From: Pseudonocardia petroleophila
Lineage (GTDB): Bacteria; Actinomycetota; Actinomycetes; Mycobacteriales; Pseudonocardiaceae
Assembly: GCF_014235185.1 (NCBI RefSeq)
Contig: NZ_CP060131.1
Span: forward strand, 131,501-195,500
Direction of reading: 5' to 3'
Length of the DNA stretch: 64,000 bases
Part shown: positions 1,949-15,190 of the stretch, piece after piece
Position numbering within the stretch: the stretch's first letter is position 1
How the letters are laid out: each line of letters opens with the position of its first letter
Notes under the pieces: generated by a model
Databases searched by the model: none
The model's input: the letters and a program-made list of their open reading frames with translations, nothing else
Told to the model about the DNA's origin: nothing
Position numbers and translations under genes: made by a program

Positions 1949-2608
1949 TCACGCCGGGCACCCGCGACCGGCCCGCGCGCCGTCGAGCAGCTGCCGGCCC
2001 AGGGCGTACGCGCCGCGGAGGTCGTCCCCCTCGAAGCACACCGCGGCGCTCTCCCGCAGCCGGGCGGTGCAGTTGACCCCCACCGAGTGCGGCAGCCGCG
2101 CGAACAGCAGGGTGTCCGAGGTCGAGTCGCCGTACGCCACGCACTCCCGGTCGGTGATCCCGAGCTCGTCGAGCAGCGCCAGGGTGATGTCGACCTTGTG
2201 CTGCAGCGTGAGGAGCCGTTCCTTCCGGGTCGGGGTGTTGGGGACCACGTCGGACCCGAAGGTGCGGTGGGCGCCCCACCCCTCCAGCCGCCGGACGAAG
2301 AAGTGCGGGGACTGCGAGATGACGGCGATGTGCTCGCCCCGGGCACGGATGTCGGCGAAGACCTCGCGGACGCCGTCCATCCAGGCCGCGGCGGCGAACG
2401 CGGCGTCGATCTCGGCCTCGCTGACGTCGGCCCAGAGCGGCAGCATCCGCTCCCAGAACTGCACGTCGGTGATCTCGCCGCGCAGCCACGCCTGCTCGAT
2501 CCGGTCGGCCGGCTCGAAGGTCCCCAGGTGCCGGGCGAGCTCGACCGAGCCGGCTCCGCGCAGGAGGGTGCCGTCCATGTCGAACACGTGCAGGTGGGTC
2601 CGGGTCAT
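1949..2608 (-). CDS. HAD-superfamily (subfamily IB) phosphatase
   Basis: A 219-residue HAD hydrolase of the phosphoserine-phosphatase-like IB subfamily. Motif I is DMDGTLL (Asp10 nucleophile, Asp12), motif II is VISQSP, and the acidic motif near the C-terminus is YGDSTSDTL. The helical cap between motifs I and II is about 80 residues, which fits IB enzymes. It sits between nadV and prs with gaps of 77 and 38 nt, so the substrate may be a phosphorylated ribosyl or nicotinamide nucleotide, but nothing in the sequence proves this. ATG at 2608 is the only start that keeps the canonical N-terminus MTRTHLHVFDMDGT. Confidence 0.85.
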   Translation of the reverse strand: MTRTHLHVFDMDGTLLRGAGSVELARHLGTFEPADRIEQAWLRGEITDVQFWERMLPLWADVSEAEIDAAFAAAAWMDGVREVFADIRARGEHIAVISQSPHFFVRRLEGWGAHRTFGSDVVPNTPTRKERLLTLQHKVDITLALLDELGITDRECVAYGDSTSDTLLFARLPHSVGVNCTARLRESAAVCFEGDDLRGAYALGRQLLDGARAGRGCPA

Positions 2609-2685: not shown

Positions 2686-4146
2686 TCAGGCCGACGCGGC
2701 CACGGCGGCCTCGTTGACCACGGTGCGCATCTGTCCGACGTGGCTGATGTAGTACGACTCCGGGACCTCCCGCTCGGCGTGGGCGATGAGGTCGGTGAAG
2801 TCCCACTTCTTGAGCAGCTTGCCGTTGCGGAACACCGGCGTCAGCACGTTCTCCGACTCCGGGATGGACCCCTTCGGCACGGTGACGTAGGTGCCGTTCT
2901 CGTACTTCAGCGCCAGGCGGCCCGCCTTGGAGGTCTTGAACGACGCCCCGGTCGGCTGCTTGGCGATGTCGCGCCACTCGCCGTTCACGCACACCGCCGA
3001 CGCCTTCTGCCCGAAGTTCATCGTGTCGCGGTTCCAGTGCTGCAGCAGGCCACCGCCCATCCCGAAGACCGCGTTGTCGGCGGCGAGCCCACGGCGCTCG
3101 AGCTCCATGTACACCTGCGGGAGGCTGTAGAAGTTCACCCCGTCGCCCTGCACGACCCGGATGTAGGGCGGGAGGATCTTGAAGCCCTTCGAGTTGACCT
3201 CGTAGCCGAAGGCCTCCATCAGCCACTCGGTGGTGTCCGCGGTGACCTGGACGATGTCGCCGGAGTCGGGCCGGATCCCGACCAGGCCCGGGAAGCTCCG
3301 GATCTGCTCCTTCAGCTCGACACCGATGATCTTCTTGACGCAGTTCTCGTGGTCGTAGGTGTCGCTGAGCAGGAGCGCGACGCCGCTCGCGGCGTAGATG
3401 GTGAGCATGTTCCGCAGCGCGTCGGCCTCGTTCCCGCGGCCCCAGGCGCAGAAGCCGGCGTGCTCGGAGTTCGGGCCCGAGTTGGAGACCTTGCCCGCGT
3501 TGTAGAAGTGCTTGGCCGCCAGGATGCCGGGGACCGTGTCGGACTGGTCGAAGTTGACCAGGTGCGCCAGGCCGCCCAGTGCGGCGGACTGCTGGGAGCT
3601 CACCCCGCGCGCGCCGTAGTCGTGCAGGATGTTGCGGATCAGGTGGGGGTTGTCCGAGGTGCGGGCCAGCGCCTCCTTGATGACCATCTTCGACAGCCAG
3701 CTGACCGTGCCGATCGTCGTCGGGTACCAGACGGCGCGCAGCAGGGCGGTCTCGAAGAAGCTGGTGGCCCAGAAGTACTTCGGGTCGGTGTTGATCAGCT
3801 GGACGAGGACGTTGCGCGCCGGCAGCACGATGCCCTCCGGCACGGCCTCGATCTCGACGGGCAGGTAACCGCCGTGGTCGTTGAGGATGCCGAGCCAGTT
3901 GTCGCGATTGAAGTGCATGCCCTGCTCGCGCGTGACGAACTCGGCCTCGTCGATGTCCTCGAGCGTGATCGGGCGCATCAGGTACTCACGCAGGTACGCC
4001 TGCAACCCGACGAACTGGGTCACCGGCCAGTCGCCGCCGCGGGACTCGATGTAGCTCGAGACGTACTCGGTGCCCGGGGGGTACAGCGGGTAGTGGCAGT
4101 GCTTGTAGTTGTCGGTGTTGATGATCAGGTTGTCGAGGTAGCCCAT
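2686..4146 (-). CDS. nadV: nicotinamide phosphoribosyltransferase (NAMPT-type)
   Basis: Condenses nicotinamide with PRPP to give NMN, a direct route into NAD that bypasses deamidation. The 486-residue protein matches the NAMPT rather than the nicotinate enzyme: HDYGARGVSS (~175-184) corresponds to the human HDFGYRGVSS-type loop, the catalytic His is in NSGPNSEHAGFCAWG (H229), and RPDSGD (~292-297) and VQGDGVNFYSL line the PRPP site. The ATG at 4146 is preceded by AAGGTGG at about 8 nt; a GTG 12 nt further upstream (4158) is an alternative but lies on top of that ribosome binding site. It heads the nadV-HAD-prs run, behind a promoter with LacI-type boxes. Dedicated nadV-prs pairs are known from phages and some bacteria. 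Confidence 0.93.
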   Translation of the reverse strand: MGYLDNLIINTDNYKHCHYPLYPPGTEYVSSYIESRGGDWPVTQFVGLQAYLREYLMRPITLEDIDEAEFVTREQGMHFNRDNWLGILNDHGGYLPVEIEAVPEGIVLPARNVLVQLINTDPKYFWATSFFETALLRAVWYPTTIGTVSWLSKMVIKEALARTSDNPHLIRNILHDYGARGVSSQQSAALGGLAHLVNFDQSDTVPGILAAKHFYNAGKVSNSGPNSEHAGFCAWGRGNEADALRNMLTIYAASGVALLLSDTYDHENCVKKIIGVELKEQIRSFPGLVGIRPDSGDIVQVTADTTEWLMEAFGYEVNSKGFKILPPYIRVVQGDGVNFYSLPQVYMELERRGLAADNAVFGMGGGLLQHWNRDTMNFGQKASAVCVNGEWRDIAKQPTGASFKTSKAGRLALKYENGTYVTVPKGSIPESENVLTPVFRNGKLLKKWDFTDLIAHAEREVPESYYISHVGQMRTVVNEAAVAASA

Positions 4147-4165
4147 CGGCTCGCCCACCTTCCAC

Positions 4166-4179
4166 GAGAGTCGTTTCTA
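4166..4179 (-). promoter_or_regulatory. LacI-type operator box a, nadV leader
   Basis: Minus-strand sequence TAGAAACGACTCTC matches the box consensus TAGAAACGATTCTA at 12 of 14 positions. It lies in the untranslated leader of nadV, 20 nt upstream of the ATG, downstream of the predicted promoter, where a repressor could act as a roadblock or close a DNA loop with boxes b and c. Confidence 0.55.
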
Positions 4180-4306
4180 CCTGCCATGCGCGCCGACATC
4201 GGATGGCACGACAGACTTGGGATGCGCGGAACCACGGTTCTACGCCTTCGAGCAGCCTTGCGTACGTGCTGGCCCATCACCAGGGATCGGCTCGTTCGGC
4301 AACACC

Positions 4307-4334
4307 ATATTAACGTTTCTAGTGTGACCGTCAA
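4307..4334 (-). promoter_or_regulatory. predicted nadV promoter
   Basis: On the minus strand TTGACG (4334-4329) and TAATAT (4312-4307) are separated by 16 nt. Both hexamers are close to the housekeeping consensus and stand out in GC-rich DNA. LacI-type box b lies across the spacer and -10. Confidence 0.55.
4308..4321 (-). promoter_or_regulatory. LacI-type operator box b, over the nadV -10
   Basis: Minus-strand TAGAAACGTTAATA matches the consensus at 11 of 14 positions with the central CG kept. Its position over the -10 element is classical for repression. Confidence 0.55.
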
Positions 4335-4516
4335 CTCATCTCGGCGCCGAGTTTCGGCCCCGCCCCAGGTCGGGGCGCCGGCCCGGGGCGCGCCGCGGTC
4401 GCCGGCGGCCGGCATCACCACAGCCAGAACCCGTACGCCGCTCGCGACCCGCGAGGTCCGGGGCGGGACGCGTCGCTCCCTCGGAGCACGACTCGGCGCG
4501 TAGTCCCGCCGGAAGC

Positions 4517-4530
4517 AGTAAACGATTCTA
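4517..4530 (+). promoter_or_regulatory. LacI-type operator box c
   Basis: AGTAAACGATTCTA keeps one perfect half-site (GATTCTA) and the AAAC of the other. It lies about 185 bp upstream of the nadV promoter and just past the ribokinase stop codon, so it may be an auxiliary operator. Confidence 0.45.
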
Positions 4531-4548
4531 CCCAGGATGGGTCGCCCG

Positions 4549-5526
4549 CTACCGGGCCCGGGCGGAGACCTCCGCGGCCAGCTCGTCGGCGGTGGGCATG
4601 CCGCCCCGGGCGCCGTCGCCGCCGACCGAGAGCGACGCCGCGACGTTGGCCAGCCGGACGGCGTCGGCGAGGGGCCCGCCCCGGGCCAGCTCGAGGGCGA
4701 GCACGCCGTTGAAGGTGTCCCCCGCCCCCGTCGTGTCCCGGACGGTGGCCGGTCGGGGCGGCACGTGGGTGACGGCTCCCGTGGGCTCGACGAGGAGGAC
4801 CCCGTCGGCCCCGAGGGTGACCGCCACGTCCGCACCGGTCAGCTCCGCCAGGGCCAGTGCGGCGTCCCGGACCGACGCCGACGGGGGCGCGCCGGGCGGC
4901 TCCCCCGTCGCGGCCCCCGGCCGGGCGACACCGGCCAGCTCGGCGAGTGCGAGGCACTCGCCCGCGTTGGGCGTCAGGATCGGGCCGAGCCCGAGCAGGT
5001 CGGCGACGACGGGCAGCACCGGCGCGGGGTTGAGGACGCACCGCACGCCGGCGGCCCGGGCGGCGCGCACGGCGGCCGCGACGGCGGCAGCCGGGACCTC
5101 CGTGCTGACGAGGACGCAGCCCGCCCCGGGCAGCAGCCGGCCGAGCCGGGCCACGACCGCCTCCGCGCTCACGTCGTCGTTCGCGCCGGCGCCGACCGCG
5201 ATCTGGTTCTCGCCCCCGGGCCCGACCACGATCAGCGCCACCCCGGTCGGCGCCGACGCGCTGACCTCGACCCCGCCGGTGTCGACCCCGTCGTCCTGCA
5301 GGTCGCGGAGGGCCTGCCGCCCGATGTCGTCGTCGCCGACGGCGCCGACGAGGACGACGGCACCACCCGCGCGGGCCGCCGCGACCGCGGCGTTCGCACC
5401 CTTCCCGCCGCCGTACCGCTCGACGCCAGGGCCGACGACGGTCTCGCCCGGCGCGGGCAGGCGCGGGGCGTTCACCACCATGTCCACGTTGACCGCGCCG
5501 ACGACCACGACGTCGATCCCGCTCAC
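4549..5526 (-). CDS. rbsK: ribokinase (PfkB family)
   Basis: Phosphorylates ribose to ribose 5-phosphate. The 325-residue protein has the N-terminal PfkB signature GGGKGANAAVA and the C-terminal catalytic motif DTTGAGDTFNG with the base Asp. GTG at 5526 is chosen because GAGGA lies 7 nt upstream and the protein then begins VSGIDVVVVGAVNVD, the normal ribokinase start. The lacI stop is only 10 nt away, so the two genes are surely co-transcribed. Its product is the substrate of the nearby prs, giving a complete ribose to PRPP to NMN chain in one neighbourhood. Other PfkB sugars or nucleosides cannot be excluded from sequence alone. Confidence 0.88.
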   Translation of the reverse strand: MSGIDVVVVGAVNVDMVVNAPRLPAPGETVVGPGVERYGGGKGANAAVAAARAGGAVVLVGAVGDDDIGRQALRDLQDDGVDTGGVEVSASAPTGVALIVVGPGGENQIAVGAGANDDVSAEAVVARLGRLLPGAGCVLVSTEVPAAAVAAAVRAARAAGVRCVLNPAPVLPVVADLLGLGPILTPNAGECLALAELAGVARPGAATGEPPGAPPSASVRDAALALAELTGADVAVTLGADGVLLVEPTGAVTHVPPRPATVRDTTGAGDTFNGVLALELARGGPLADAVRLANVAASLSVGGDGARGGMPTADELAAEVSARAR

Positions 5527-5536
5527 CGGCGCGTCC

Positions 5537-6559
5537 TCACCCGCGCGGCGGCCCGACGCTGTCGCGGATCTTGACGACGGCGGGGAGTGTGTCACTGGTG
5601 TCGACATCGTTGCCCTCCAGCAGGTCGAACAGCACGTTCGCGGCGCGGTACCCCATGTCGTGGGCCGGCTGGCGCACGCTGGTGAGGCGGGGGGTGAGCA
5701 GCGCCGAGATGGGCAGGTCGTCGAAGCCCACCACGCTCATGTCGTCGGGCACCGTCAACCCGCTGCTGCGGAGGCAGTCGATGGCGCCGATGGCCATCAG
5801 GTCGTTGGCGCACAGCAGTGCGGTGGGCCGCTCGGCCGCCGGGCCCGCGAGGATCTGCTCGGCCGCGGCCCGGCCCGACTCCTGCCGGTAGTCCCCCGCG
5901 TGGACCGGGACGGAGTCGGGGTCGATGCCGGCACCGGCGATCGCCTCCCGGTACCCGGCGAGTCGCTGCTGCGCGGTCCACAGCGCAGGCGGCCCGCCGA
6001 TCACCGCGATGCGGCGGTGCCCGTGGTTCAGCACGTGCGTCGCGACCTCGCGCGCGCCGCGCCGGGAGTCGCACACGATCGCCGGGAGGTCCCGGCCAGG
6101 GATCTGCTCGTCGACGAGGACGACCGGCCCGGACTTCGCGAGGTCGTAGATGGACTCGGGCATCGACCCCGTCCCCGACAGGTAGATCACCCCGTCGACC
6201 CGCTGGCTGCGCAGCAGCCTCGCGTAGTTCTCCTCCGGCAGCTCGATCGCGTCCGGTACCACGAGCACGACCAGGACGTTGACCGCCGACGCCGCGCGCT
6301 GCACCCCCTCGGTGACCATCGCGAAGAACTGGTTGGTCAGATCGGGGACGACCATGGCGATCGTCGAGGCCGAGCGGCGCTTGAGGCTCCGCGCCGACTC
6401 GTTCGGCGAGTAGTCGAGGAGGCGGATCGCGTCCAGGACGCGGTTCCTCCTGTCCTGCGCCACGGGGCCGCTGTCGTTCAGCACGTAGCTGACCGTGCTG
6501 ACCGAGACGTTCGCGCGTTCTGCGACGTCCTTCATGGTGGGACGACGGCGTGCAACCAC
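5537..6559 (-). CDS. LacI-family transcriptional regulator
   Basis: A 340-residue repressor with an N-terminal helix-turn-helix (MKDVAERANVSVSTVSYVL) and hinge helix NESARSLKRR, followed by a periplasmic-binding-protein-like effector domain that ends VVGFDDLPISALLTPRLTSV. GTG at 6559 is chosen because GAGAGG lies 8 nt upstream and the product starts VVARRRPTMKDV, usual for the family; ATG at 6535 is an alternative. It is the fourth gene of the cupin operon, ahead of rbsK. It is the obvious candidate to bind the TAGAAACGATTCTA boxes found before nadV, the cupin operon, the CoA-transferase and the aldehyde dehydrogenase. The effector is unknown. Confidence 0.92.
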   Translation of the reverse strand: MVARRRPTMKDVAERANVSVSTVSYVLNDSGPVAQDRRNRVLDAIRLLDYSPNESARSLKRRSASTIAMVVPDLTNQFFAMVTEGVQRAASAVNVLVVLVVPDAIELPEENYARLLRSQRVDGVIYLSGTGSMPESIYDLAKSGPVVLVDEQIPGRDLPAIVCDSRRGAREVATHVLNHGHRRIAVIGGPPALWTAQQRLAGYREAIAGAGIDPDSVPVHAGDYRQESGRAAAEQILAGPAAERPTALLCANDLMAIGAIDCLRSSGLTVPDDMSVVGFDDLPISALLTPRLTSVRQPAHDMGYRAANVLFDLLEGNDVDTSDTLPAVVKIRDSVGPPRG

Positions 6560-6572
6560 GGTCGGGACCTCT

Positions 6573-7352
6573 CTACGAGCTGGCGCGAGCCGCCCACCGC
6601 AGGACGGACGCCCAGAACTGCTGGTAGTGCGGCCACCCCACGAACTCGGGTGGCGCCCAGTGCGGAGCCAGATCGGAGGTGAAGGCCACGGACCGGCCCT
6701 CACCCGCCTGTCCGACAACCAGCAGCGGGTCGTCACCGGCCCGTGCGACGGTCGTCGCCTCCGGCTTGGCGATCACCCGGTTGTACCCCAGCAACGACGG
6801 CCACTCCGCAGGGGTACCACCGAGCACCTCGTGCGTCGGTCGGTCGAAGTCCGCCTTGATGCCCTCGGACTCCTCGATCCGGTCGTCGTGGTCCAGCATC
6901 GCGACGGGCAGCACGTCGGCCAGCGGGGTCATGCCGAACCGCGCCTTGCCGTCGATGCCGGTGAAGGACATGTAGCCACCGATCATGACCAGTCCCCCGC
7001 CCGCCCGCGTCCAGTCCCGCAGCAGGGCGAGCCGGTTGGGGCTGCGCTCCGACCGCAGGAACGTCTCGTCGGGCAGCAGGAACGAGTTGGACCCGATGTC
7101 GGAGAGCACCACGACGTCGAACTCGTCGAGCTCGGTCATGGTCCGGGGGAACCTCGAGGAGATCTCGTGCCCCCGGATGTAGGTGACCGGGAAGCCCTCG
7201 CGGTCGAGAGCGGCCAGGAACTCGCCGGCGCCCTCCTCGTACTCCGTGGTGTGGAACTGGTCGAAGCCCTTCATGTGGATGGTGTGCTTCATCCACGACT
7301 CACCGGCGAACAGCACCCGCGGCGGGCGGCCCGGCGCGACCCCGGCGCTCAC
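6573..7352 (-). CDS. glutamine amidotransferase-like protein (DUF1355 / ThuA-like fold)
   Basis: A 259-residue class I amidotransferase-like protein: N-terminal RVLFAGESWMKHTIHMKGFD, a middle DVVVLSDIGSNSFLLP and GGGLVMIGGYMSFTG, and a C-terminal TSDLAPHWAPPEF segment typical of the family. There is no Cys nucleophile in the position expected for a true amidotransferase (the elbow reads IGGYMSF), so it is probably a fold member with another role. The GTG start at 7352 overlaps the preceding stop as GTGA, so translation is coupled to the PNPOx-like gene. Substrate unknown; expressed with a cupin, a flavin-split-barrel protein, LacI and ribokinase. Confidence 0.75.
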   Translation of the reverse strand: MSAGVAPGRPPRVLFAGESWMKHTIHMKGFDQFHTTEYEEGAGEFLAALDREGFPVTYIRGHEISSRFPRTMTELDEFDVVVLSDIGSNSFLLPDETFLRSERSPNRLALLRDWTRAGGGLVMIGGYMSFTGIDGKARFGMTPLADVLPVAMLDHDDRIEESEGIKADFDRPTHEVLGGTPAEWPSLLGYNRVIAKPEATTVARAGDDPLLVVGQAGEGRSVAFTSDLAPHWAPPEFVGWPHYQQFWASVLRWAARASS

Positions 7353-7864
7353 AGGATGCGGTCCTCGACGTGGGCCGGGAGCACGCGCGACTCCGGCATG
7401 GGCAGGACGCTGAGCTCGCGCATGTCCCACCCGATCATCTTGTCCGGCACCAGCTCGTAGTAGGTCCGGCCGGCGACGTCGCCGAACTCGAGGTACTGCT
7501 CGGCGAACGGGTGCCCGACGTGGAAGTACTTGTCGAACACGAGCTCGGCCAGCTCGGCGGCCAGCGCCGCGTCCTCGACCCGCCGCATGCTGCCGACGAT
7601 CCGGACACCGGACACCGTCGCGTACTCGTCCCCCTGGTCGACCAGTGCGGACAGCGCGCGTCCCGCCCGGAAGTTGTCGCCGTGCCGGGACGCGGCGTCG
7701 ATGGGGATGTAGATCTTCTTGTCGCGCACCACCAGCCAGAGCGGCGAGAGGTAGATCGATCCGTCCTCATCGGCCGTCGCCACGCGGATGGTCTTCGCCC
7801 GGGACAGGTAGGCCCAGCGCTTGTCGCCCCGCAGGGGCTGCCAGGTGCTCGCGGTGACGGCCAT
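7349..7864 (-). CDS. pyridoxamine 5'-phosphate oxidase-family (flavin split-barrel) protein
   Basis: A 171-residue split beta-barrel protein of the PNPOx-like superfamily that binds FMN or F420. Visible blocks are TIRVATADEDGSIYLSPLW and KKIYIPIDAASRHGDNFRAG, then SALVDQGDEYATVSGVRIVG. This matches the group of small actinobacterial F420/FMN reductases rather than true PdxH, whose C-terminal PLP-binding signature is absent. ATG at 7864 lies 2 nt after the cupin stop and its own stop overlaps the next start, so it is the middle gene of a tightly coupled operon. Physiological substrate unknown. Confidence 0.8.
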   Translation of the reverse strand: MAVTASTWQPLRGDKRWAYLSRAKTIRVATADEDGSIYLSPLWLVVRDKKIYIPIDAASRHGDNFRAGRALSALVDQGDEYATVSGVRIVGSMRRVEDAALAAELAELVFDKYFHVGHPFAEQYLEFGDVAGRTYYELVPDKMIGWDMRELSVLPMPESRVLPAHVEDRIL

Positions 7865-7866
7865 GG

Positions 7867-8334
7867 TCAGTTCCCCTCCGCGGCGCGCAGCGCCTTCAGT
7901 TCGCGGCTGTAGTCGGGCGCGTCGGCGACGCCGACCTTGGGCGACGGGCCGGAGGTCCAGAGGAACTTCCAGGTGACCCCGGTGTTCTCGAGCGTGTACT
8001 TGTAGCCGGCCGGCAGGTAGATGTGCTCCCCCGCGGCGGCCTCGAGCACGACCGTGCGTCCGGCCGCGTCCTCGACGACCAGGTGGATCTTCCCCTCGAG
8101 CACGTAGTGCGTCTCGTCGAAGTCCTTCTGGTCCCAGTGGTAGGGCAGGTGGTCGGGCTCGCCGTAGCAGTAGCCGTGCCGGAAGTAGCGGGCGTCGTCG
8201 CGCTCCCGCGACAGGAAGATGTTGGTCACGATGCCGGTGTTGAACGTCAGCACCGGCATCTTGTCGATCTCCTCGGGCACGATGACCCGCGGGTAACGAC
8301 GCGCGTTGCGGGCATCGGGGTCGTACTCCGTCAC
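7867..8334 (-). CDS. cupin-domain protein
   Basis: A 155-residue single-domain cupin. The first cupin motif is spread over HWDQKDFDETHYVLEGKIHL (metal ligand candidates His and Glu) and the second over GEHIYLPAGYKYTLEN. GTG at 8334 has GAGAGGAGG about 8 nt upstream, the strongest ribosome binding site in this operon. It is the first gene of the cupin / PNPOx-like / amidotransferase-like / lacI / rbsK operon and stands behind LacI box d. It may be a small isomerase or oxygenase acting on a sugar acid, but no function is proven. Confidence 0.8.
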   Translation of the reverse strand: MTEYDPDARNARRYPRVIVPEEIDKMPVLTFNTGIVTNIFLSRERDDARYFRHGYCYGEPDHLPYHWDQKDFDETHYVLEGKIHLVVEDAAGRTVVLEAAAGEHIYLPAGYKYTLENTGVTWKFLWTSGPSPKVGVADAPDYSRELKALRAAEGN

Positions 8335-8432
8335 GGCAACGGCCTCCTCTCAGATTGTCCGACTCGGGTACCGTGCGAGAAACCTTTCGCACCGGCCTGA
8401 CCGCCGTGCACGTTCGCGAACGACGCATCATG

Positions 8433-8446
8433 TTGATTCGTTTCTA
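8433..8446 (-). promoter_or_regulatory. LacI-type operator box d, cupin operon
   Basis: Minus-strand TAGAAACGAATCAA matches the consensus at 12 of 14 positions and begins at the last base of the predicted -10 (TACGCT), covering the expected start point. Confidence 0.6.
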
Positions 8447-8476
8447 GCGTAGCGCGACCCACTGGCCCGAGGTCAA
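8446..8476 (-). promoter_or_regulatory. predicted promoter of the cupin-lacI-rbsK operon
   Basis: Minus-strand TTGACC (8476-8471) and TACGCT (8451-8446) with a rather long 19-nt spacer (18 if the -35 is read one base later). The start point would fall inside box d, about 110 nt before the cupin GTG. Confidence 0.5.
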
Positions 8477-8532
8477 GGCTTTCCCGGCGGCCAGTTCCGT
8501 CGAGCCCCTGCTCGTGCCCCGGAACTGCGGGC

Positions 8533-8561
8533 TTGACGCTCCGCGTCGCCCGTCCTACGTT
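8533..8561 (+). promoter_or_regulatory. predicted promoter of the CoA-transferase gene
   Basis: TTGACG (8533-8538) and TACGTT (8556-8561) with a 17-nt spacer. The start point would lie within operator box e, 4-17 nt downstream of the -10. Confidence 0.6.
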
Positions 8562-8564
8562 TCG

Positions 8565-8578
8565 TAGAAAGCTTTCTA
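8565..8578 (+). promoter_or_regulatory. LacI-type operator box e, perfect 14-bp palindrome
   Basis: TAGAAAGCTTTCTA is a perfect palindrome located at the predicted transcription start of the CoA-transferase gene. It keeps both TAGAA/TTCTA half-sites of the box consensus but has GC rather than CG at the centre. Confidence 0.6.
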
Positions 8579-8594
8579 TGCTTCAGGAGGTGCG

Positions 8595-9722
8595 GTGGCG
8601 GTGTCCGAGCCGACGGCGCTCGACGGGCTGGAGGTGCTCGACTTCTCCCGGGTACTGGCGGGGCCCTTTGCGACCATGCTGCTCGCCGACCTCGGCGCCA
8701 CCGTCACCAAGGTCGAGCGACCCGGCGGCGGGGACGACACGAGGGCGTGGGGTCCGCCGTACGACGACGCGGGGCAGGCCACCTACTTCCAGGCGGTCAA
8801 CCGCAACAAGGCGACCAGCGCACTCGACCTGTCCTCGCCCGCGGGCCTGGCCGCCGCGCAGGCCGCCGCGGCGCGCGCGGACGTCCTGGTGGAGAACTTC
8901 CGGCCGGGGGTCATGGAGCGGCTGGGACTCGGCCCGGCCGAGCTCTGCGCCGCGAACCCGCGGCTGGTCTACTGCTCGGTCACCGGCTTCGGCGCGGGCG
9001 CGGGCGCCGGGATGCCGGGGTACGACCTGCTGGTCCAGGCCGTCGGCGGCCTGATGAGCATCACCGGCGAGCCGGACGGCGAGCCCCAGAAGGTCGGGGT
9101 GGCGCTGGTCGACGTCCTCGCCGGGCTGTTCGCCTCGGTCGGCATCCTCGCCGCGCTGCGGCACCGCGAGTCCACCGGACACGGCCAGCGGATCGAGGTC
9201 GACCTGCTGTCGAGCCTCCTCGCGGCGCTGGTCAACCAGGGCTCCGCGTACACCGCGGGCGGGGTGGTCCCCCGCCGGCTCGGCAACCGGCACCCGAGCA
9301 TCGCCCCGTACGAGCTGTTCCCCTGCTCGGACCGCGACCTCGTCCTGGCCGTCGGCACCGACCGCCAGTTCCGGGTCCTCTGCGCCGTGCTCGACCTGCC
9401 CGAGGTCGCGGGCGACGCCCGCTTCGCCACCAACGCGGACCGCGTCGGCCACCGCGACCTGCTCCGGCAGGTGCTGGAGGAGCGGCTGAGCCGGAGGCCT
9501 GCGGCGGAGTGGGTGGAGCGCCTGACCCGCGTCGGGGTCCCCGCCGGCGTCGTGAACGACGTCGCCGGCGCCTTCGCGCTCGCCGAGTCCCTCGGGCTCG
9601 ACCCCGTCGTGCGGCTGCCGCGCGCCGACGGGACCTCGATCGGCCTGACCCGCAACCCGATCACGCTGTCGAGGACCCCGGTGCGCTACCGGACGGCCCC
9701 GCCCGCGCTGCCCGAGCCCTAG
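8595..9722 (+). CDS. CoA-transferase, family III (CaiB/BaiF)
   Basis: Transfers CoA between a donor acyl-CoA and a carboxylic acid. The 375-residue protein has the N-terminal signature VLDFSRVLAGPFATMLLADL, LVENFRPGVMERLGL and the catalytic Asp in GVALVDVLAG (D173). GTG at 8595 has GGAGG 5 nt upstream. It is divergent from the cupin operon and has its own promoter and LacI-type box. The stop TAG at 9720-9722 lies in the 6-bp target duplication of the downstream IS481-family element, so the insertion left the reading frame intact. The acid substrate is unknown; the regulated aldehyde dehydrogenase nearby could supply it. Confidence 0.9.
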   Translation: MAVSEPTALDGLEVLDFSRVLAGPFATMLLADLGATVTKVERPGGGDDTRAWGPPYDDAGQATYFQAVNRNKATSALDLSSPAGLAAAQAAAARADVLVENFRPGVMERLGLGPAELCAANPRLVYCSVTGFGAGAGAGMPGYDLLVQAVGGLMSITGEPDGEPQKVGVALVDVLAGLFASVGILAALRHRESTGHGQRIEVDLLSSLLAALVNQGSAYTAGGVVPRRLGNRHPSIAPYELFPCSDRDLVLAVGTDRQFRVLCAVLDLPEVAGDARFATNADRVGHRDLLRQVLEERLSRRPAAEWVERLTRVGVPAGVVNDVAGAFALAESLGLDPVVRLPRADGTSIGLTRNPITLSRTPVRYRTAPPALPEP

Positions 9723-9723
9723 T
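9718..9723. repeat. target-site duplication of the IS element, left copy
   Basis: CCTAGT directly abuts the left terminal repeat and contains the CoA-transferase TAG stop. The right copy is CCTAGG at 10839-10844. Both fit the NCTAGN target known for IS481; they differ in the last base. Confidence 0.7.
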
Positions 9724-10708
9724 TGTACTGATCGGACAGGTTAGTCAATCTGGTGATCGGTGGGTGTCCGCCGCAGGCGGTGTGGGGTCGGTGATGGTTG
9801 TACTCGTGAATCCAGCCCGGTAGGGCTTTGCGGCGGTGGGTTTCGCTGGCGTAGAGCCGGCGGAACGCCCATCCCTCGACCAGGGTCCGATGGAACCGTT
9901 CGACCTTGCCGTTGGTCTGCGGGCGGTAGGGGCGGGTGCGGCGGTGGCGGATCTCAAGCTCGGCGCAGGCCTCGCGCCACAGGTGTGAGCGGTAGCAGGC
10001 GCCGTTGTCGGTCAGGACCGCCCGGACGGTGACGTGGCGGGCGGCGAACCAGGCCACTGCCCGGTGCAGCACGGCGACCGCGGTGGCGGCGGTTTCGTCG
10101 TCGCACATCTCGGTGTAAGCGACGCGGGAGTGGTCGTCCAGGACGGTGTGCAGGTAGCCGGTGCCCATCTTGGGATGGTGGTGACGGTTGCGCGGCTTGC
10201 CCGGGGTCGCGGCCCGATGACGCTTGCCTTGGGCGCGTCCGACGAAGCGCCATCCGCCGCCGTCGGGGATGTTGCCCAGCTTCTTCACATCCACGTGGGC
10301 CAGGTCGCCGGGGTGGGGATGTTCGTAGCGGCGCACAGGTTCCCCGGTGGCCCGGTCCAGGTGGGAGAGCCGGTTGATCCGGCACGAGGTCAGGATGCGG
10401 TGCACCGTGGAGGTCGACAGCCCCAGGATCGCGGCGATTCCGACCGGCCCCAGGCGTTGCTTCCAGCGCAGGTGCACGACCTTGCGCACCGCCGGGGCCG
10501 GCGTCGCGCAGGGTGAGTGGTGCGGGCGGGAGGACCGGTCTTGCATGCCGGCCTCGCCCTCGCAGGCGTACCGGTCGGCCCAGCGTTTCGCCGTCGGCCA
10601 GGACACCTGGAACCGTTCCGCAGCCCGGGCGACGGGCCAGTCCTGCTCGACGACCAGCTTCCCCAGCCGTAGTCGTGCGGTCGGGGTCAGCGCGGCGTTA
10701 GCGTGCAC
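9719..10708 (-). CDS. IS481-family transposase
   Basis: A 329-residue DDE transposase: N-terminal winged helix-turn-helix (RLRLGKLVVEQDWPVARAAE, then FQVSWPTAKRWADRY), a second HTH (GPVGIAAILGLSTSTVHRIL), and an integrase core with Asp in HVDVKKLG, Asp in LTDNGACYRS and Glu in NGKVERFHRT. GTG at 10708 has AGGAGG about 8 nt upstream. All three acidic residues and both DNA-binding motifs are present and the frame is open, so the element is probably functional or recently so. Its TAG stop (9719-9721) lies just outside the left inverted repeat, within the target duplication, which happens to supply the stop codon. Confidence 0.93.
   Translation of the reverse strand: MHANAALTPTARLRLGKLVVEQDWPVARAAERFQVSWPTAKRWADRYACEGEAGMQDRSSRPHHSPCATPAPAVRKVVHLRWKQRLGPVGIAAILGLSTSTVHRILTSCRINRLSHLDRATGEPVRRYEHPHPGDLAHVDVKKLGNIPDGGGWRFVGRAQGKRHRAATPGKPRNRHHHPKMGTGYLHTVLDDHSRVAYTEMCDDETAATAVAVLHRAVAWFAARHVTVRAVLTDNGACYRSHLWREACAELEIRHRRTRPYRPQTNGKVERFHRTLVEGWAFRRLYASETHRRKALPGWIHEYNHHRPHTACGGHPPITRLTNLSDQYN
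9724..9736 (+). repeat. IS481-family terminal inverted repeat, left
   Basis: TGTACTGATCGGA, a perfect 13-bp match to the inverted copy at 10826-10838; similarity continues inward less exactly (GGTTAGTC against GTTGGTC). Confidence 0.85.
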
Positions 10709-10825
10709 GGTGAGGACCTCCTGGGTCGTGGTGTGGGTGCCGTCAGACAGCTCCACACCACCCCAGGGGGTCCTCACCTATCAAGATCAGTCAGACCGTG
10801 TCGTCACACGACCTCGACCAACGTC

Positions 10826-10838
10826 TCCGATCAGTACA
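10826..10838 (-). repeat. IS481-family terminal inverted repeat, right
   Basis: TCCGATCAGTACA, the exact reverse complement of the left terminal repeat; followed by CCTAGG, the right target duplication. Confidence 0.85.
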
Positions 10839-10856
10839 CCTAGGCACGGGCCGGCC

Positions 10857-10885
10857 GGCGGTGGGTGCGAGGGGCGCCCACCGCC
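10857..10885. terminator. hairpin between convergent genes
   Basis: GGCGGTGGG pairs perfectly with CCCACCGCC across an 11-nt loop. No U-tract follows, as is common in high-GC actinobacteria. It lies 11 nt past the aldehyde dehydrogenase stop and, before the IS insertion, would have been about 15 nt after the CoA-transferase stop, serving both. Confidence 0.6.
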
Positions 10886-10896
10886 CGCCGGGCGGC

Positions 10897-12330
10897 TCAG
10901 GCGCCGGCGTAGCCGAAGACCGACTTGGTCTCCAGGAACTCGCGCAGGCCGAAGTCCGAGTACTCCCGGCCGTTTCCGGACTGCTTGTAGCCACCGAACG
11001 CGCCGGCGAAGTCGAGCCCGGCCCCGTTGACGTGGACCATCCCCGTCCGCATGCGGCGCGCCACCGCGCGGGCCCGCTCCAGGTCGGCGGACGAGACGAA
11101 CCCCGCCAGGCCGTACACGGTGTCGTTGGCGAGGCGGATCGCGTCGTCCACGTCGGTGTAGGTCGTCACCGTGACGACCGGTCCGAAGATCTCCTCCTGC
11201 GCGATCTCCATGTCGTTGGTGACGTTCGCGAGGACGGTCGGACGCACGAAGTAGCCGACGTCCAGCCCGGCGGGACGGCCGAGTCCCCCGGCCACGACCG
11301 TCGCGCCGGCGTCCACCGCGCCGCGGATCAGGCGCTGCACCTTGTCGTAGGCGGCCCGGGACACGAGCGGCCCGATCTGCACGCCCTCCTGCTCCGGGTG
11401 CCCCACGACGACCGCCTCGGCCGCCGTCCGGGCGTGCGCGAGCACCTCCTCCAGCTTGGTCTCGGGGACCAGCCACCGGGCACCCGCGTTGCAGGACTGC
11501 CCGGAGTTCGCGTACACGTCGGCGAGGTCGCGCGGGACGACGGAGGCGAAGTCGGCGTCGTCGAGCATGATGTTCGCCGACTTGCCGCCCAGCTCCTGGG
11601 CCACCCGCTTCACCGTCGGGGCGGCGCTCCTGGCCACCTCGACGCCGGCGCGCGTGGACCCGGTGAAGGAGACCATGTCGACGTCGGGGTGGGAGGTGAG
11701 CGCGCTCCCGGCCGTGGGGCCGTCGCCGTGGACGAGGTTGAACACCCCGGCCGGGACGCCGGCCTCGTGCAGGACCTCGGCGATGACCACCGCGTTGAAC
11801 GGGGCGAGCTCGGAGGGCTTGAGCACCATCGTGCACCCCGCGGCGAGCGCAGGGGCCACCTTCGCCGCGATCAGCAGCGGCGGCCAGTTCCACGGCGTGA
11901 TCAGGCCGCAGACCCCGATCGGCTCGTAGCGGACCTGGGTGCCGCCCCGCTGCTCCTCGAACGCGAAGTTCTTCAGTGCGTCGATCGCGAAGGTGAACTG
12001 GCCGAGCCCGGCGCCCACCTGGGCCGTGCCGGCGAGGGAGGCGGGCGCGCCCATCTCGGCCGTCAGGGCGTCGGCGATGTCCTGCGACCGCGACCGGTAC
12101 ACCTCGACGATCCGCTCGAGCAGCTGCACCCGCTCCGCGACGGTCGTCTGCGAGAAGGACGCGAAGGCCGCACGAGCCGCCGCCACCGCCCGGTCGACGT
12201 CCTCGGCGCCACCCAGGGCCACCGTGGCGATCGCCGTCTCGGTGGCGGGGTCCAGGACGTCCGTCGACGACGCCGAGGCCGACGGGTCGACCCACTCGCC
12301 GTCGATGTAGAAACGATCCGCGTTCGTCAT
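10897..12330 (-). CDS. NAD(P)-dependent aldehyde dehydrogenase
   Basis: Oxidises an aldehyde to the carboxylic acid. The 477-residue protein has the family residues in order: N148 in TPWNWP, E246 in ELGGKS and catalytic C280 in NSGQSCNAG, with FTGSTRAG in the cofactor-binding site. It is closest to the betaine/lactaldehyde-type group. ATG at 12330 is used; a second ATG two codons upstream (12336) is possible. It has its own promoter with LacI-type box f, which ties it to the regulon of the 5-9 kb region. A further box-like match (12308-12321) lies inside codons 4-8. Confidence 0.93.
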   Translation of the reverse strand: MTNADRFYIDGEWVDPSASASSTDVLDPATETAIATVALGGAEDVDRAVAAARAAFASFSQTTVAERVQLLERIVEVYRSRSQDIADALTAEMGAPASLAGTAQVGAGLGQFTFAIDALKNFAFEEQRGGTQVRYEPIGVCGLITPWNWPPLLIAAKVAPALAAGCTMVLKPSELAPFNAVVIAEVLHEAGVPAGVFNLVHGDGPTAGSALTSHPDVDMVSFTGSTRAGVEVARSAAPTVKRVAQELGGKSANIMLDDADFASVVPRDLADVYANSGQSCNAGARWLVPETKLEEVLAHARTAAEAVVVGHPEQEGVQIGPLVSRAAYDKVQRLIRGAVDAGATVVAGGLGRPAGLDVGYFVRPTVLANVTNDMEIAQEEIFGPVVTVTTYTDVDDAIRLANDTVYGLAGFVSSADLERARAVARRMRTGMVHVNGAGLDFAGAFGGYKQSGNGREYSDFGLREFLETKSVFGYAGA

Positions 12331-12448
12331 CCTCATCCTCACTGCTGCCGGGAGATCACTGACGCAGCCGTGTCCGGAGCTCGTCCGCGCCCACGTCAGG
12401 GAAGGTTCGTCCGGGTTCGCTCGGCGGGAACGTGCTCGCACAGCCGGG

Positions 12449-12462
12449 TAGAAACGATTGCA
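12449..12462 (+). promoter_or_regulatory. LacI-type operator box f, aldehyde dehydrogenase
   Basis: TAGAAACGATTGCA matches the consensus at 12 of 14 positions. It lies just downstream of the predicted aldehyde dehydrogenase -10, at the expected start point, the same geometry as boxes d and e. Confidence 0.6.
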
Positions 12463-12466
12463 CCGC

Positions 12467-12496
12467 AGGGTAGAGGGCGCCGAGGAAGTGGGTCAA
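12467..12496 (-). promoter_or_regulatory. predicted promoter of the aldehyde dehydrogenase gene
   Basis: Minus-strand TTGACC (12496-12491) and TACCCT (12472-12467) with an 18-nt spacer, followed at once by box f. Confidence 0.55.
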
Positions 12497-12540
12497 GGCG
12501 TCGGTTCCGGACGGGGCGGTCGCGAGTGGTAGAAGGGTCC

Positions 12541-13362
12541 ATGCCAGCCACGACCCGCTCCACGACGGCGCCCGACGGTGCGCGCATCGACTACACCGAG
12601 CACCACCGCTCCGGCGCCGGCCGTGCGGTGGTGCTGCTCGCCGGGTTCGGGGCGCCGGCGACCTCGTGGCTCCACCAGGTGCCCGCGCTCGTGCGGGCGG
12701 ACCACCGGGTGGTCACGGCCGACCTGCCCGGCCACGGCACGGCCGGCCCGACGCCGGACGGCAGCACCATGCGCGGGCGCGCCGACCACCTGCACGCGCT
12801 GCTCGAGCACCTGGACCTGCACGACGCCGTGCTCGTCGGCGGCTCGATGGGCGGCAACACGATCTGGGCGCACGTGGCCGCCCACGGCACCGGGTGGCTG
12901 GCCGGCATCGCGGTCGCCGACCAGACCCCGAAGATGGTCAACACCGACGACTGGCCGCACGGGTTCTACGGCTACACCGAGGCCAACCGGGCGGGCTTCT
13001 TCGCCGACGGCATCCCGGACACCGGGCACGGCACCCCCCTGTGGCGCCGGGGCCTGCGCCTGGTCCGGCTGCTCCGCGCGATGCGGGGCGCGCGGCGCAC
13101 GCTGTCCCCGGCCGACCACGTGCTCCTCGACGACCACGGTGCCGCCGACTGGCGCGACACCGTGCGCGCGGTGGACGTGCCCGTCCTCTTCGTCGCCGGG
13201 GCCGAGAGCGAGCTGTGGCCCGCCTCCCACGCCGACGCGTCCGCGGCGCTGTCCCCCCACGGTCGCGCCGTCACGATCCCCCGGGCCGGCCACGCGGTGA
13301 ACATGGAGCAGCCCGCGGCGTTCGACCGGGCGCTGCTGGAGTTCCTGCGGGGCCTGCGCTGA
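12541..13362 (+). CDS. alpha/beta-fold hydrolase
   Basis: A 273-residue hydrolase with the oxyanion segment VVLLAGFGAPATSW, nucleophile elbow GGSMGG (Ser) and C-terminal catalytic His in RAGHAVNMEQP. The cap region TPKMVNTDDWPHGFYGY is typical of small haloperoxidase/esterase-like members. ATG at 12541 with GAAGG shortly upstream is used; a GTG at 12526 is an alternative. It is divergent from the aldehyde dehydrogenase, so box f could affect it too. Substrate unknown. Confidence 0.85.
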   Translation: MPATTRSTTAPDGARIDYTEHHRSGAGRAVVLLAGFGAPATSWLHQVPALVRADHRVVTADLPGHGTAGPTPDGSTMRGRADHLHALLEHLDLHDAVLVGGSMGGNTIWAHVAAHGTGWLAGIAVADQTPKMVNTDDWPHGFYGYTEANRAGFFADGIPDTGHGTPLWRRGLRLVRLLRAMRGARRTLSPADHVLLDDHGAADWRDTVRAVDVPVLFVAGAESELWPASHADASAALSPHGRAVTIPRAGHAVNMEQPAAFDRALLEFLRGLR

Positions 13363-13366
13363 CCCG

Positions 13367-15061
13367 TCAGCCGTCGAGCCGGCCCGACGCCGCGTGCAGG
13401 ACGAGCAGCACGTGCAGGTCGAGGGCCCGCTTCTGCCAGCCGTCCCCCAGCAGGCGGTCGATCGTCGCGAGCCGCTGGTAGAGCGTGTTGACGTGGATGC
13501 CGAGCGCGGCGGCCGACGGGGTCGGGCGCCGCCCGTGCTCGAGGTAGGTGCGCAGCGTGTCGACCAGCGGCACCTGCCGCACCTGCTCCTCCGCGAGCAC
13601 CCGGCCGAGCTCGCGCCGCACCTGCTCGGCGAGGTCCCGGCGCCCGCTGTGGCTGAGCAGCACGGCGAACACGCCGAGGTCGCCCGCGCGGGCCAGCTCG
13701 CCGTCGCGACCCAGCGCGGTGAGCGCCCTCGCGGTGCGCCCGGCGTCGGCGTAGGCCCGGCGCAGCTCGGAGGCGGGCACCGGCCCGGCCAGCCCGGCCG
13801 TCGGCGCTCCCGGACGGGTCCAGGTCTCGTGGAGATCCACCCCGTCCGGCAGCACCATCACCATCCGGCCCCGCAGCGCGGCGACGGCGCCCGGTAGCCC
13901 GGCCGCCCACCGGCGCGCCGCCTCGGGATCGCCGTCGGCCACCAGCACCAGGTGCTCGCGGCGCGGGTCGAGGCCGGCGCCGCGCAGCCTGCGCCGCTCG
14001 GCCGCGGGATCCGGTTCGGCCCGGGTGAGCAGGTCGACGGTCGCGATGTCGCGCCCGAGGCGGTCGGCGCGCTCCGCGGCCCGGCGACCGGTCAGGGTGA
14101 GCGCCAGCACCGGCGCCGCCCGCTCCATCAGGAGCACGACGTCGGGGTCCGGGTCGGGGTCGTCGACGGCGAGGGCCCCGAGCAGGTCGCCCGCGGCCAC
14201 GACGGGACGCGCGGCGCCCTCGCGCGGACGCCGCGCGTCGTCCGGGTCGAGCCACTGCAGCGGGGTCGGCGTCATCGCCCGCACCCGCTCCAGCAGCGAG
14301 TCGAGGTCGCCGCCCTCGAGGACGGCCGCGGTGAGCTCGGCGTCCAGCGCCAGGGTGCGCTGCAGCGCCGCCTCCGACTCGGCCAGCCGCTGACGCGACC
14401 GCGCGTTGTCGATCGCGACGGCGGCGTGCGCGGCCAGGCCCTGCAGCAGCCGCACCTCGTCGTCGTCGAACACCCGCTCCCGGCGCTTCGCCGCCAGCAG
14501 CGCGCCCAGCACCCGGCCGCGGACGGCCAGCGGGACGCCGAGCAGGCCGCGCAGCCCCTCGGCGTCCGCGGCCCGGTCGGCCGTCTCCGCGTGCTCGATG
14601 CGGGTCTCGGTGCGGTAGTCGCGCGTCCACATCGCCTCGCCCGAGTCGACCACCCGCCCGATCAGGCCGCCGCCCGAGGGCAGGCGCACCCCCACCAGCC
14701 GCGGGCTGCGGGCGCCGTCGGCCACCACGATCCGCATCGCCCGGTCGTCGCCCTCGACCAGGGCGAGGTAGGTGAGGTCGACGCCGAGCAGCCGCCGCGC
14801 CTGCGCCACGACCTCCCGCAGGAGGTCCTCCGGGTCGAGCACCACGGCGAGGCGCTCCGCCACGTCGTTGAGCGCCGCGAGCTCGACCGCCCGCTGGCGG
14901 CGCTCGGCGAGCAGAGCGGCCACCTCCAGCGCCGCGCGGGCCTGTGCGTCGGCCCGCTCGGGGGGCGTCCCCGCGGCGACGAGCGCGCGCCGGTGGGCCT
15001 CCAGGGCGTCGAGCGGCGCCTGCCCCGCCAGCAGCTGCACCCAGTCGGACTCCGCCGTCAT
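13367..15061 (-). CDS. GAF-domain transcriptional regulator with PucR-type C-terminal HTH
   Basis: A 564-residue regulator. A GAF domain covers about residues 75-220 (VDLTYLALVEGDDRAMRI, then LGALLAAKRRERVFDDDEV), a central linker / GGDEF-like region follows, and the C-terminus (LVDTLRTYLEHGRRPTPSA, then GIHVNTLYQRL) is the PucR/CdaR HTH_30 domain. Such proteins usually activate neighbouring catabolic genes upon binding a small aromatic or carboxylate. It is divergent from the MFS/FAD-oxidase operon with a 129-bp shared promoter region, so it is the likely regulator of that operon. Confidence 0.85.
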   Translation of the reverse strand: MTAESDWVQLLAGQAPLDALEAHRRALVAAGTPPERADAQARAALEVAALLAERRQRAVELAALNDVAERLAVVLDPEDLLREVVAQARRLLGVDLTYLALVEGDDRAMRIVVADGARSPRLVGVRLPSGGGLIGRVVDSGEAMWTRDYRTETRIEHAETADRAADAEGLRGLLGVPLAVRGRVLGALLAAKRRERVFDDDEVRLLQGLAAHAAVAIDNARSRQRLAESEAALQRTLALDAELTAAVLEGGDLDSLLERVRAMTPTPLQWLDPDDARRPREGAARPVVAAGDLLGALAVDDPDPDPDVVLLMERAAPVLALTLTGRRAAERADRLGRDIATVDLLTRAEPDPAAERRRLRGAGLDPRREHLVLVADGDPEAARRWAAGLPGAVAALRGRMVMVLPDGVDLHETWTRPGAPTAGLAGPVPASELRRAYADAGRTARALTALGRDGELARAGDLGVFAVLLSHSGRRDLAEQVRRELGRVLAEEQVRQVPLVDTLRTYLEHGRRPTPSAAALGIHVNTLYQRLATIDRLLGDGWQKRALDLHVLLVLHAASGRLDG

Positions 15062-15190
15062 GTGGAGGATCCTCCCACCGATCCCCGGCTGTGACAGAGG
15101 ATCCGTCCGTTGTCGGGCGGGGTGTCCGCGCCGGACCCTGATGCGACCCCACCGAGCGGCAGAGCCGCCGACTCACGCCAGGAGAACCCC

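Follow-up and report, generated by a model that had tools for sequence, protein, structure and literature searches.

A gene cluster in a 64,000-nucleotide stretch of the Pseudonocardia petroleophila chromosome (contig NZ_CP060131.1, positions 131,501 to 195,500; this whole stretch is referred to as the window) is proposed to be a LacI-controlled catabolic module which activates a pyridine-type ring by N-phosphoribosylation. We consider this reading reasonably probable and, provided that ribosylation is the strategy used, the base is quite likely to be pyridine itself. The proposal draws on gene content, co-occurrence of the genes in other genomes, conserved operator boxes and substitutions in the pocket of a NadV homologue, all of which were directly observed. 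The genes of the cluster are as follows (negative positions lie to the left of the window):

-1082 to -393, outside the window, after gcdH: LOG-type phosphoribohydrolase (family search)
-334 to 835 (1 to 835 within the window), minus strand: glutaryl-CoA dehydrogenase gene gcdH, 389 amino acids (match to 3swo, 630 bits, E 1e-188)
921 to 1910, minus strand: prs, ribose-phosphate pyrophosphokinase, i.e. phosphoribosyl pyrophosphate (PRPP) synthetase (PF13793, TIGR01251)
1949 to 2608, minus strand: HAD-IB phosphatase, phosphoserine-phosphatase-like (TIGR01488; start codon picked by eye)
2686 to 4158, minus strand: NadV/NAMPT homologue with altered nicotinamide pocket (start at 4158, GTG, or 4146, ATG)
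4549 to 5526, minus strand: rbsK, ribokinase-like PfkB kinase (TIGR02152, 251 bits against a cut-off of 300)
5537 to 6559, minus strand: LacI-family regulator (closest models CytR and RbsR, none above cut-off)
6573 to 7352, minus strand: PF07090 GATase1-like protein, a relative of 2gk3 and 3soz, the latter being STM1381 (start picked by eye)
7349 to 7864, minus strand: PNPOx/FDOR split-barrel oxidoreductase, proposed to be F420H2-dependent (family and fold comparison)
7867 to 8334, minus strand: small cupin, EutQ-like (family search)
8595 to 9722, plus strand: CaiB/BaiF family III CoA-transferase (best NCBIfam model succinate-glutarate CoA-transferase, below cut-off)
10897 to 12330, minus strand: aldehyde dehydrogenase (ALDH; family search), with an inferred role as glutaraldehyde or glutarate-semialdehyde dehydrogenase

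The nadV operon extends beyond the left end of the window, where gcdH and then the LOG gene follow prs. The preliminary description of this DNA had named nadV-HAD-prs, a cupin/PNPOx/GATase1-like/lacI/rbsK operon, a CoA-transferase and an aldehyde dehydrogenase as the targets of one regulator, and the family searches proved this list to be correct. GcdH is firmly assigned by its sequence, ALDH and CaiB at the level of the family only. Since gcdH is present and the best model for CaiB is of the glutarate type, the carbon exit of the pathway would be a C5 dicarboxylate.

The simplest reading which uses most of the genes, and the best-supported one, is a cycle in which ribose serves as a handle. 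We infer the substrate, every single reaction, the effector and the repression in the following scheme. The ribokinase and Prs would convert recycled ribose to PRPP, from which the NadV homologue would move phosphoribose onto the ring nitrogen to form a quaternary N-ribosylpyridinium; the HAD phosphatase may then strip the phosphate. Compared with pyridine, a pyridinium is reduced or attacked far more readily, which would be the purpose of the ribosyl activation. In the form of the module found in the window, the FDOR/PNPOx protein would reduce the activated ring with F420H2, and hydrolysis, for which the cupin or the PF07090 protein may be responsible, would open the reduced ring. In a sister form described below, a luciferase-type monooxygenase (LLM) would oxygenate the ribosylpyridinium instead, and the resulting C4 and C1 units would yield succinate and formate. 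The carbon count of pyridine is compatible with both exits. In the window form, ALDH would oxidize a C5 dialdehyde or semialdehyde to glutarate, which CaiB would convert to glutaryl-CoA and GcdH to crotonyl-CoA. LOG and a nucleoside hydrolase would free ribose or ribose 5-phosphate for the first step, and the LacI protein, with CytR and RbsR as the closest models, would keep all units repressed as long as neither ribose nor a ribosylated intermediate is present.

The pocket of the NadV homologue carries much of this argument. The roles of the catalytic and nicotinamide-lining residues of the nicotinamide phosphoribosyltransferase NAMPT are known from structures. We aligned 33 NadV homologues from such clusters (30 distinct sequences) to two solved NAMPTs, and compared them with a canonical set consisting of these two and five plasmid NadVs which were picked from 40 plasmid records with less than 60% identity. 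The catalytic residues H247, R311, D313, D354 and R392, and likewise Y18 and R196, are kept in all 33 cluster NadVs. The nicotinamide-lining residues are changed: F193Y and A244N occur in 33 of 33 and V242G in 31, and further pocket changes are I309G (30 of 33) and A245S (29 of 33). The window NadV itself has Y193, G242 and N244. Among the best 120 database matches to NadV, F193Y was found in 119 and A244N in 120, whereas F193, V or I at position 242, and A244 are retained in all seven canonical or solved proteins.

The preliminary description had linked the regulon to NAD salvage with synthesis of nicotinamide mononucleotide (NMN). According to such an explanation, NadV would form NMN, Prs and RbsK would supply PRPP from ribose or nicotinamide riboside, and the degradation genes would be a side branch. 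The family assignment of NadV speaks for it, since the best NCBIfam name above the cut-off is nicotinate phosphoribosyltransferase, and so do the kept catalytic residues together with D219, which contacts the amide in NAMPT and is retained in 32 of the 33 cluster NadVs. A245S occurs in two canonical NadVs as well and is thus no marker of the cluster NadVs. An NMN adenylyltransferase homologue (nadM) is located beside four of the five canonical plasmid nadV genes (the proteobacterial loci L084-L087), whereas the search of the window and of other module loci for nadM gave no match. In the actinobacterium Arthrobacter caoxuetaonis (L088), the fifth canonical nadV adjoins prs and lacks a nadM neighbour, so that prs next to nadV agrees with NAD salvage and nadM nearby is not a strict criterion for it. 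The explanation nevertheless meets changed residues at positions 193 and 244 in every cluster NadV, leaves the linkage to gcdH, caiB and FGD/CofGH or LLM genes unexplained, and would have to do with a regulon lacking a transporter for nicotinamide or its riboside. We consider it improbable. With F193, V242 and A244 altered and nadM missing from the window and module loci, NAD salvage is, as judged from the sequences, probably the wrong label for the regulon.

The distribution of the module was followed in a table of 39 loci with a NadV of at least 55% or a GATase1-like PF07090 protein of at least 65% identity, some of the loci being incomplete and some overlapping. A nadV gene is present in 36 of them, accompanied by prs in 26, the HAD gene in 32, the PF07090 gene in 28, lacI in 26 and rbsK in 24. 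In an even, module-blind draw of 394 genomes of the class, NadV was detected at E≤1e-100 in four, including the genome of the window itself, and the other three all hold further module genes, although in one of them (G245) no PF07090, HAD or rbsK matches were found in the piece covered. NadV was found in seven of 41 related genomes, all seven with a close PF07090 homologue (in one case as fragments only); PF07090 homologues occur in 10 of these 41 genomes and in 36 named loci, and the remaining three of the 10 are 46-47% identical. The gene set is present in Pseudonocardia, Rhodococcus, Arthrobacter, Planosporangium and a gammaproteobacterial metagenome-assembled genome, and the nearest plasmid NadVs are encoded by Rhodococcus and Arthrobacter megaplasmids.

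Two forms of the module can be distinguished by thresholds which were chosen after inspection of the data and in loci which are not independent. Twenty loci carry PNPOx, 12 carry LLM, none carries both and seven carry neither, the last being mostly partial loci or lone nadV-HAD copies. In the sister (LLM) form, LLM, a flavin reductase and an amidohydrolase replace PNPOx and the cupin. Neither LLM nor a flavin reductase was detected from gcdH to ALDH in the window, and the window's cluster contains no amidohydrolase. F420 genes (FGD-like, CofGH, FbiB) were found in 11 of the 20 PNPOx loci and in none of the 12 LLM loci, the FGD-like family scoring 417.6 bits against a cut-off of 420. Similarly, caiB is present in 10 and gcdH in eight of the 20 PNPOx loci but in no LLM locus, whereas the amidohydrolase (eight) and the flavin reductase (six) were found in LLM loci but in none of the PNPOx loci. 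In Pseudonocardia dioxanivorans CB1190, apparent remnants of the PNPOx form lie beside an LLM-form cluster (L035, 13000-16300); they comprise nadV, LOG, HAD, fragments of PF07090 and cupin genes, and a nucleoside hydrolase gene with an operator.

The link to pyridine itself was made through the sister form. Rhodococcus sp. PD04 grows on pyridine as the sole source of carbon and nitrogen, and no pathway genes were named in the publication (PMC11256795). Its plasmid carries an LLM-form cluster with genes for LLM, flavin reductase, aldehyde dehydrogenase, amidohydrolase, succinate-semialdehyde dehydrogenase and formate dehydrogenase, together with nadV, HAD, PF07090, lacI, rbsK and prs. A PD04-type LLM of at least 60% identity was found in six plasmid records, and all of these carry nadV too. 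As the phenotype of a single strain, the link is thin. One strain of Rhodococcus pyridinivorans is reported not to grow on pyridine (PMC10005059), so that the species name is no proof of pyridine use; in that study, R. rhodochrous IEGM 757 and R. ruber IEGM 231 are reported to grow on pyridine, and seven of the nine Rhodococcus strains tested not to. Among the titles listed in our searches of an open-licence library, none concerned ribosylation in pyridine catabolism, and these searches gave no publication which combines pyridine with phosphoribosyltransferase, F420 or glutaryl-CoA, or with Nocardia and glutaric semialdehyde; the 12 of 980 further matches which were listed dealt with NAD biology or NAD analogues. 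The route had been called catabolic but unknown in the preliminary description; it can still be regarded as catabolic, and may now be specified as leading to a C5 dicarboxylate (gcdH, glutarate-type CaiB), with a pyridine link provided by a relative's plasmid.

The base might instead be a substituted pyridine or another azine (picoline, nicotinamide or a trigonelline-like compound), which would be a sub-case of activation by ribosylation. Seven distant cluster NadVs (55-67% identity) have the loop SAVFQEH/SATFQEH (three), SGVHMEH together with D219E (two) or keep SGPNSEH (two), and some variant-loop NadVs are second copies beside the main type. As five of the seven carry variant loops, members of the family may have become adapted to several bases. 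Moreover, the label trigonelline monooxygenase was given to two (P0154, P0169) of the 120 LLM relatives listed, the rest having generic labels or none; trigonelline monooxygenase acts on an N-methylated pyridinium, in which the nitrogen is already quaternary. On the other hand, the C5 exit through glutaryl-CoA best fits an unsubstituted ring, and PD04, which grows on pyridine, has a NadV that agrees with the main type at four positions (Y193, G242, N244, S245) and has C in place of G at position 309. A substituted base is rather unlikely in our opinion.

Two pairs of loci deserve mention. The Rhodococcus DK176 and WAY2 plasmids (L062, L063) encode a NadV with SGVHMEH and D219E beside two PNPOx and two cupin paralogues and the F420 biosynthesis genes cofE, cofC and cofGH; judged from these sequences, their module possibly acts on a different base. 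L078 and L082 carry second nadV copies (62% identical, with HAD) with the loop SGPNSEH, and L078 also has a prs homologue of 44% identity.

F420 is our slightly preferred candidate for the cofactor of the FDOR/PNPOx protein. The split-barrel fold of the protein is supported by fold comparison, and the genome holds an F420-dependent glucose-6-phosphate dehydrogenase (FGD), CofG and a nucleoside hydrolase which is 61% identical to the one in the relatives' clusters. The F420-dependent FDORs of mycobacteria (Rv1155, Rv2074, MSMEG_6526) are 12-21% identical to the window PNPOx in alignments. Concerning the two proteins which might open the ring, only Glu of the usual cupin metal ligands is invariant in the small cupin, and its AlphaFold2 model is poor (mean pLDDT 54.5). 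Class-I amidotransferases carry Cys at the loop position corresponding to GGYMSF; the conserved GGYMSF loop of the PF07090 protein has no Cys after GG, and a class-I amidotransferase role of this protein is hence doubted.

All units of the cluster are preceded by operator-like boxes. The 14-mer put forward in the preliminary description was searched for in the 64-kb window with up to three mismatches, which gave nine strand-matches at seven positions; 100 shuffled windows gave 0.18 matches on average and two at most. The boxes and their assignment are listed below:

4166 to 4179: nadV proximal operator, TAGAAACGACTCTC on the minus strand, directly upstream of the start codon (motif scan)
4308 to 4321: nadV middle operator, TAGAAACGTTAATA on the minus strand, overlapping a -10-like hexamer (motif and promoter scan)
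4517 to 4530: nadV distal operator, AGTAAACGATTCTA on the plus strand (motif scan)
8433 to 8446: cupin operon operator, TAGAAACGAATCAA on the minus strand (motif scan)
8565 to 8578: caiB operator, TAGAAAGCTTTCTA, about -30 to caiB (motif scan)
12308 to 12321: weak seventh operator, inside the ALDH start region (motif scan)
12449 to 12462: ALDH operator, TAGAAACGATTGCA (motif scan)

All six sites described previously were thus recovered, the first three being assigned to nadV, and the weaker one at 12308 means that the boxes are not confined to those six. None of the window boxes is an exact copy of the 14-mer, each having two or three mismatches. The conserved core is the half-site TAGAAACG. 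Most sites are palindromic around CG as stated, but the box at 8565 has GC in the centre. A position at or just past a -10 element, also claimed for the boxes, holds for one: the scan of 4100-12600 for promoter-like pairs, which is weak evidence in a GC-rich genome, yielded a single pair (minus strand, 4334-4307), and the box at 4308 overlaps its -10.

As expected for a local regulon, the boxes are rare elsewhere in the 6.49-Mb chromosome. When up to three mismatches are tolerated, the palindrome TAGAAACGTTTCTA, which is perfect in relatives, occurs at nine positions. The 8.3-kb cluster holds five of these, among them the only two positions with two mismatches; the reversed control matched 15 positions. 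For TAGAAACGNTTCTA, five of the seven positions with up to two mismatches are inside the cluster. When three mismatches were allowed, the reversed control gave more matches (130/128) than the motif (39/44), which indicates that the motif is clustered at this locus and not abundant genome-wide.

Conservation of the boxes was examined in 40 sequences (the window and 39 relatives' loci), which are related and not independent; some overlap or repeat (L024/L081, L060/L064, L033/L036) and some come from single genomes (L035/L036/L077, L037/L038). With up to four mismatches, 241 CG-centred sites were found in these sequences, whereas 34.7 were expected from first-order Markov random sequences. A box lies within 450 bp upstream of nadV in 31 of the 37 nadV-bearing sequences, and the three-box layout of the window (about -15, -160 and -370 to nadV) recurs in 15 of the 37. 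The caiB genes of L043, L079 and L080 have CG-centred boxes 18-33 bp away, at about the distance seen in the window, and boxes with four mismatches are located at the ALDH start in L041 and L079, similarly to the window site at 12308. On the R. pyridinivorans P23 and Rhodococcus PD04 plasmids, boxes with one mismatch or none stand before nadV, prs and the LLM gene. Boxes and gene set thus co-occur in most actinobacterial loci, and the boxes are conserved in most orthologous promoters as well. With one lacI gene inside the set, boxes and gene content support the suggested local regulon over the nadV, cupin, caiB and ALDH units. On the sequence evidence, this predicted LacI regulon is genuine and conserved; taken by itself, it is an ordinary one.

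It could be argued that boxes and LacI are real but join units of unrelated function, brought together by chance or by horizontal transfer. Gene order is variable, the clusters reside on Rhodococcus and Arthrobacter plasmids, and in the gammaproteobacterial locus L042 the boxes do not clearly exceed the number expected (five against 4.0). Such an assembly is, however, hard to reconcile with the same gene set in the four actinobacterial genera and the gammaproteobacterial genome named above and with the boxes in most of the actinobacteria, and it is very improbable.

No transporter gene was found between gcdH and ALDH in the window, which would fit a membrane-permeant base. A reading of the regulon as one of nucleoside uptake was ranked low for the same lack of a transporter. 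In five loci of Mesorhizobium/Hyphomicrobiales and Bacillota (L044, L048, L049, L050, L051), the PF07090 gene adjoins a nucleoside hydrolase gene, and several of these loci also have a BMP-type nucleoside ABC transporter and LacI (families assigned partly by eye), hinting at a general role of PF07090 in ribosyl metabolism. In a wider explanation, the module would serve detoxification or nucleoside salvage: toxic bases would be ribosylated or deribosylated, or nucleosides imported, and the glutarate genes would be incidental. The neighbours of PF07090 in Mesorhizobium and Bacillota agree with this, as does the presence of IUNH and LOG in module loci. The regulon without a transporter, gcdH following prs on the same strand, the box type shared by caiB and ALDH, and the ring-cleavage-type genes of the sister form all argue against it, and we regard it as quite improbable.

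Several further observations, besides those on NadV mentioned above, weigh against catabolic activation by N-phosphoribosylation. The growth on pyridine which serves as evidence is that of one strain, which has the sister form and in which the part of the cluster in growth is putative, and in the material searched here we found no record of a PNPOx-form strain tested on pyridine. The PNPOx protein scored weakly with the F420 model TIGR03618 (32 bits, cut-off 79), heme and FAD binders were level with F420 binders or ahead of them when folds were compared, and in this genome the genes for FGD, CofG and the nucleoside hydrolase are far from the cluster. CaiB reached 359 bits with the succinate-glutarate CoA-transferase model, whose curated cut-off is 750. 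One locus (L083) is a mixed case with a PNPOx-like match and LLM-form partners. No box was found within 450 bp upstream of nadV in six of the 37 sequences (L042, L062, L063, L076, L078, L082); L062 and L063, both from plasmids with F420 genes, have boxes before the HAD and nucleoside hydrolase genes, and L078 and L082 have no box with up to four mismatches anywhere in the locus. Finally, in the pyridine pathway of Arthrobacter sp. 68b (pyrA-E), the monooxygenase is said to cleave free pyridine directly, in which case NadV would not be obligatory in the sister form.

Some features adjoin or interrupt the cluster. An IS481-type element, recognized by eye at 9718-10844 with a transposase-like open reading frame (9719-10777) and imperfect terminal inverted repeats of 38 nt, separates caiB from ALDH. 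These two genes are convergent, with a distance of about 74 bp between them in L022; the element is probably harmless to both. Past LOG (-3959 to -1472, L057 9542-12029), an acyl-CoA-dehydrogenase-like protein was found and an AraC-like regulator was recognized by eye, and the chromosome scan detected no 14-mer box in this part. Outside the window, some 6 kb from its left end, there is a flavin-reductase-like match (L057). On the other side, a GAF/PucR-type regulator and, by eye, an MFS transporter and a GlcD-like FAD oxidase adjoin the regulon (13367-17904), where the window scan found no box.

Extended beyond this cluster, PRPP-dependent N-phosphoribosylation could be a general bacterial activation for the catabolism of aromatic N-heterocycles, comparable to that by CoA for aromatic acids, with the ring then being reduced by F420H2 or split by a flavin monooxygenase and the NAMPT-like pockets varying with the base; we give this generalization an even chance. 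The cluster offers a concrete gene set and a chemical logic in which the nitrogen is quaternised with a recyclable ribose phosphate. If true, NAMPT-like enzymes would have a catabolic role, the joint travel of PRPP synthetase, ribokinase, phosphatase and F420 genes on some degradative plasmids would be explained, and the genes could serve as markers when pyridine is to be removed from coking and chemical wastewater. If confirmed, the activation chemistry would be new in kind, as far as we know, and would represent a new bacterial attack on such pollutants.

Among known systems, the NadV/NAMPT operons of NAD salvage (nadV-nadM, nadV-prs) share the homologous phosphoribosyltransferase and, in some cases, PRPP synthetase with the cluster, but here the base pocket is altered, nadM was not found and a catabolic regulon surrounds nadV. 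The pathway of strain 68b resembles the LLM form of PD04 and P23, which has LLM, flavin reductase, aldehyde dehydrogenase, amidohydrolase and succinate-semialdehyde dehydrogenase, and that of P. dioxanivorans, which has the first four and a second aldehyde dehydrogenase. In contrast, the window form is without LLM and amidohydrolase in the cluster, and both forms add NadV and, for the most part, Prs, HAD, RbsK, the GATase1-like protein and LacI. The glutarate route of pyridine degradation would end with glutarate semialdehyde, glutarate and glutaryl-CoA, which would match GcdH and the roles proposed here for ALDH and CaiB. We know of no genes for this route, of no gene-level answer for the aerobic actinobacterial first attack on unsubstituted pyridine which leads to glutarate, and of no ribosylation as a part of it. 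Trigonelline ring cleavage by TgnAB relies on a luciferase-type monooxygenase acting on a pyridinium with quaternary nitrogen, analogously to the reaction proposed for the sister form. The nitrogen of trigonelline is, however, methylated already, whereas in the module described here the cell itself would quaternise the nitrogen with PRPP.

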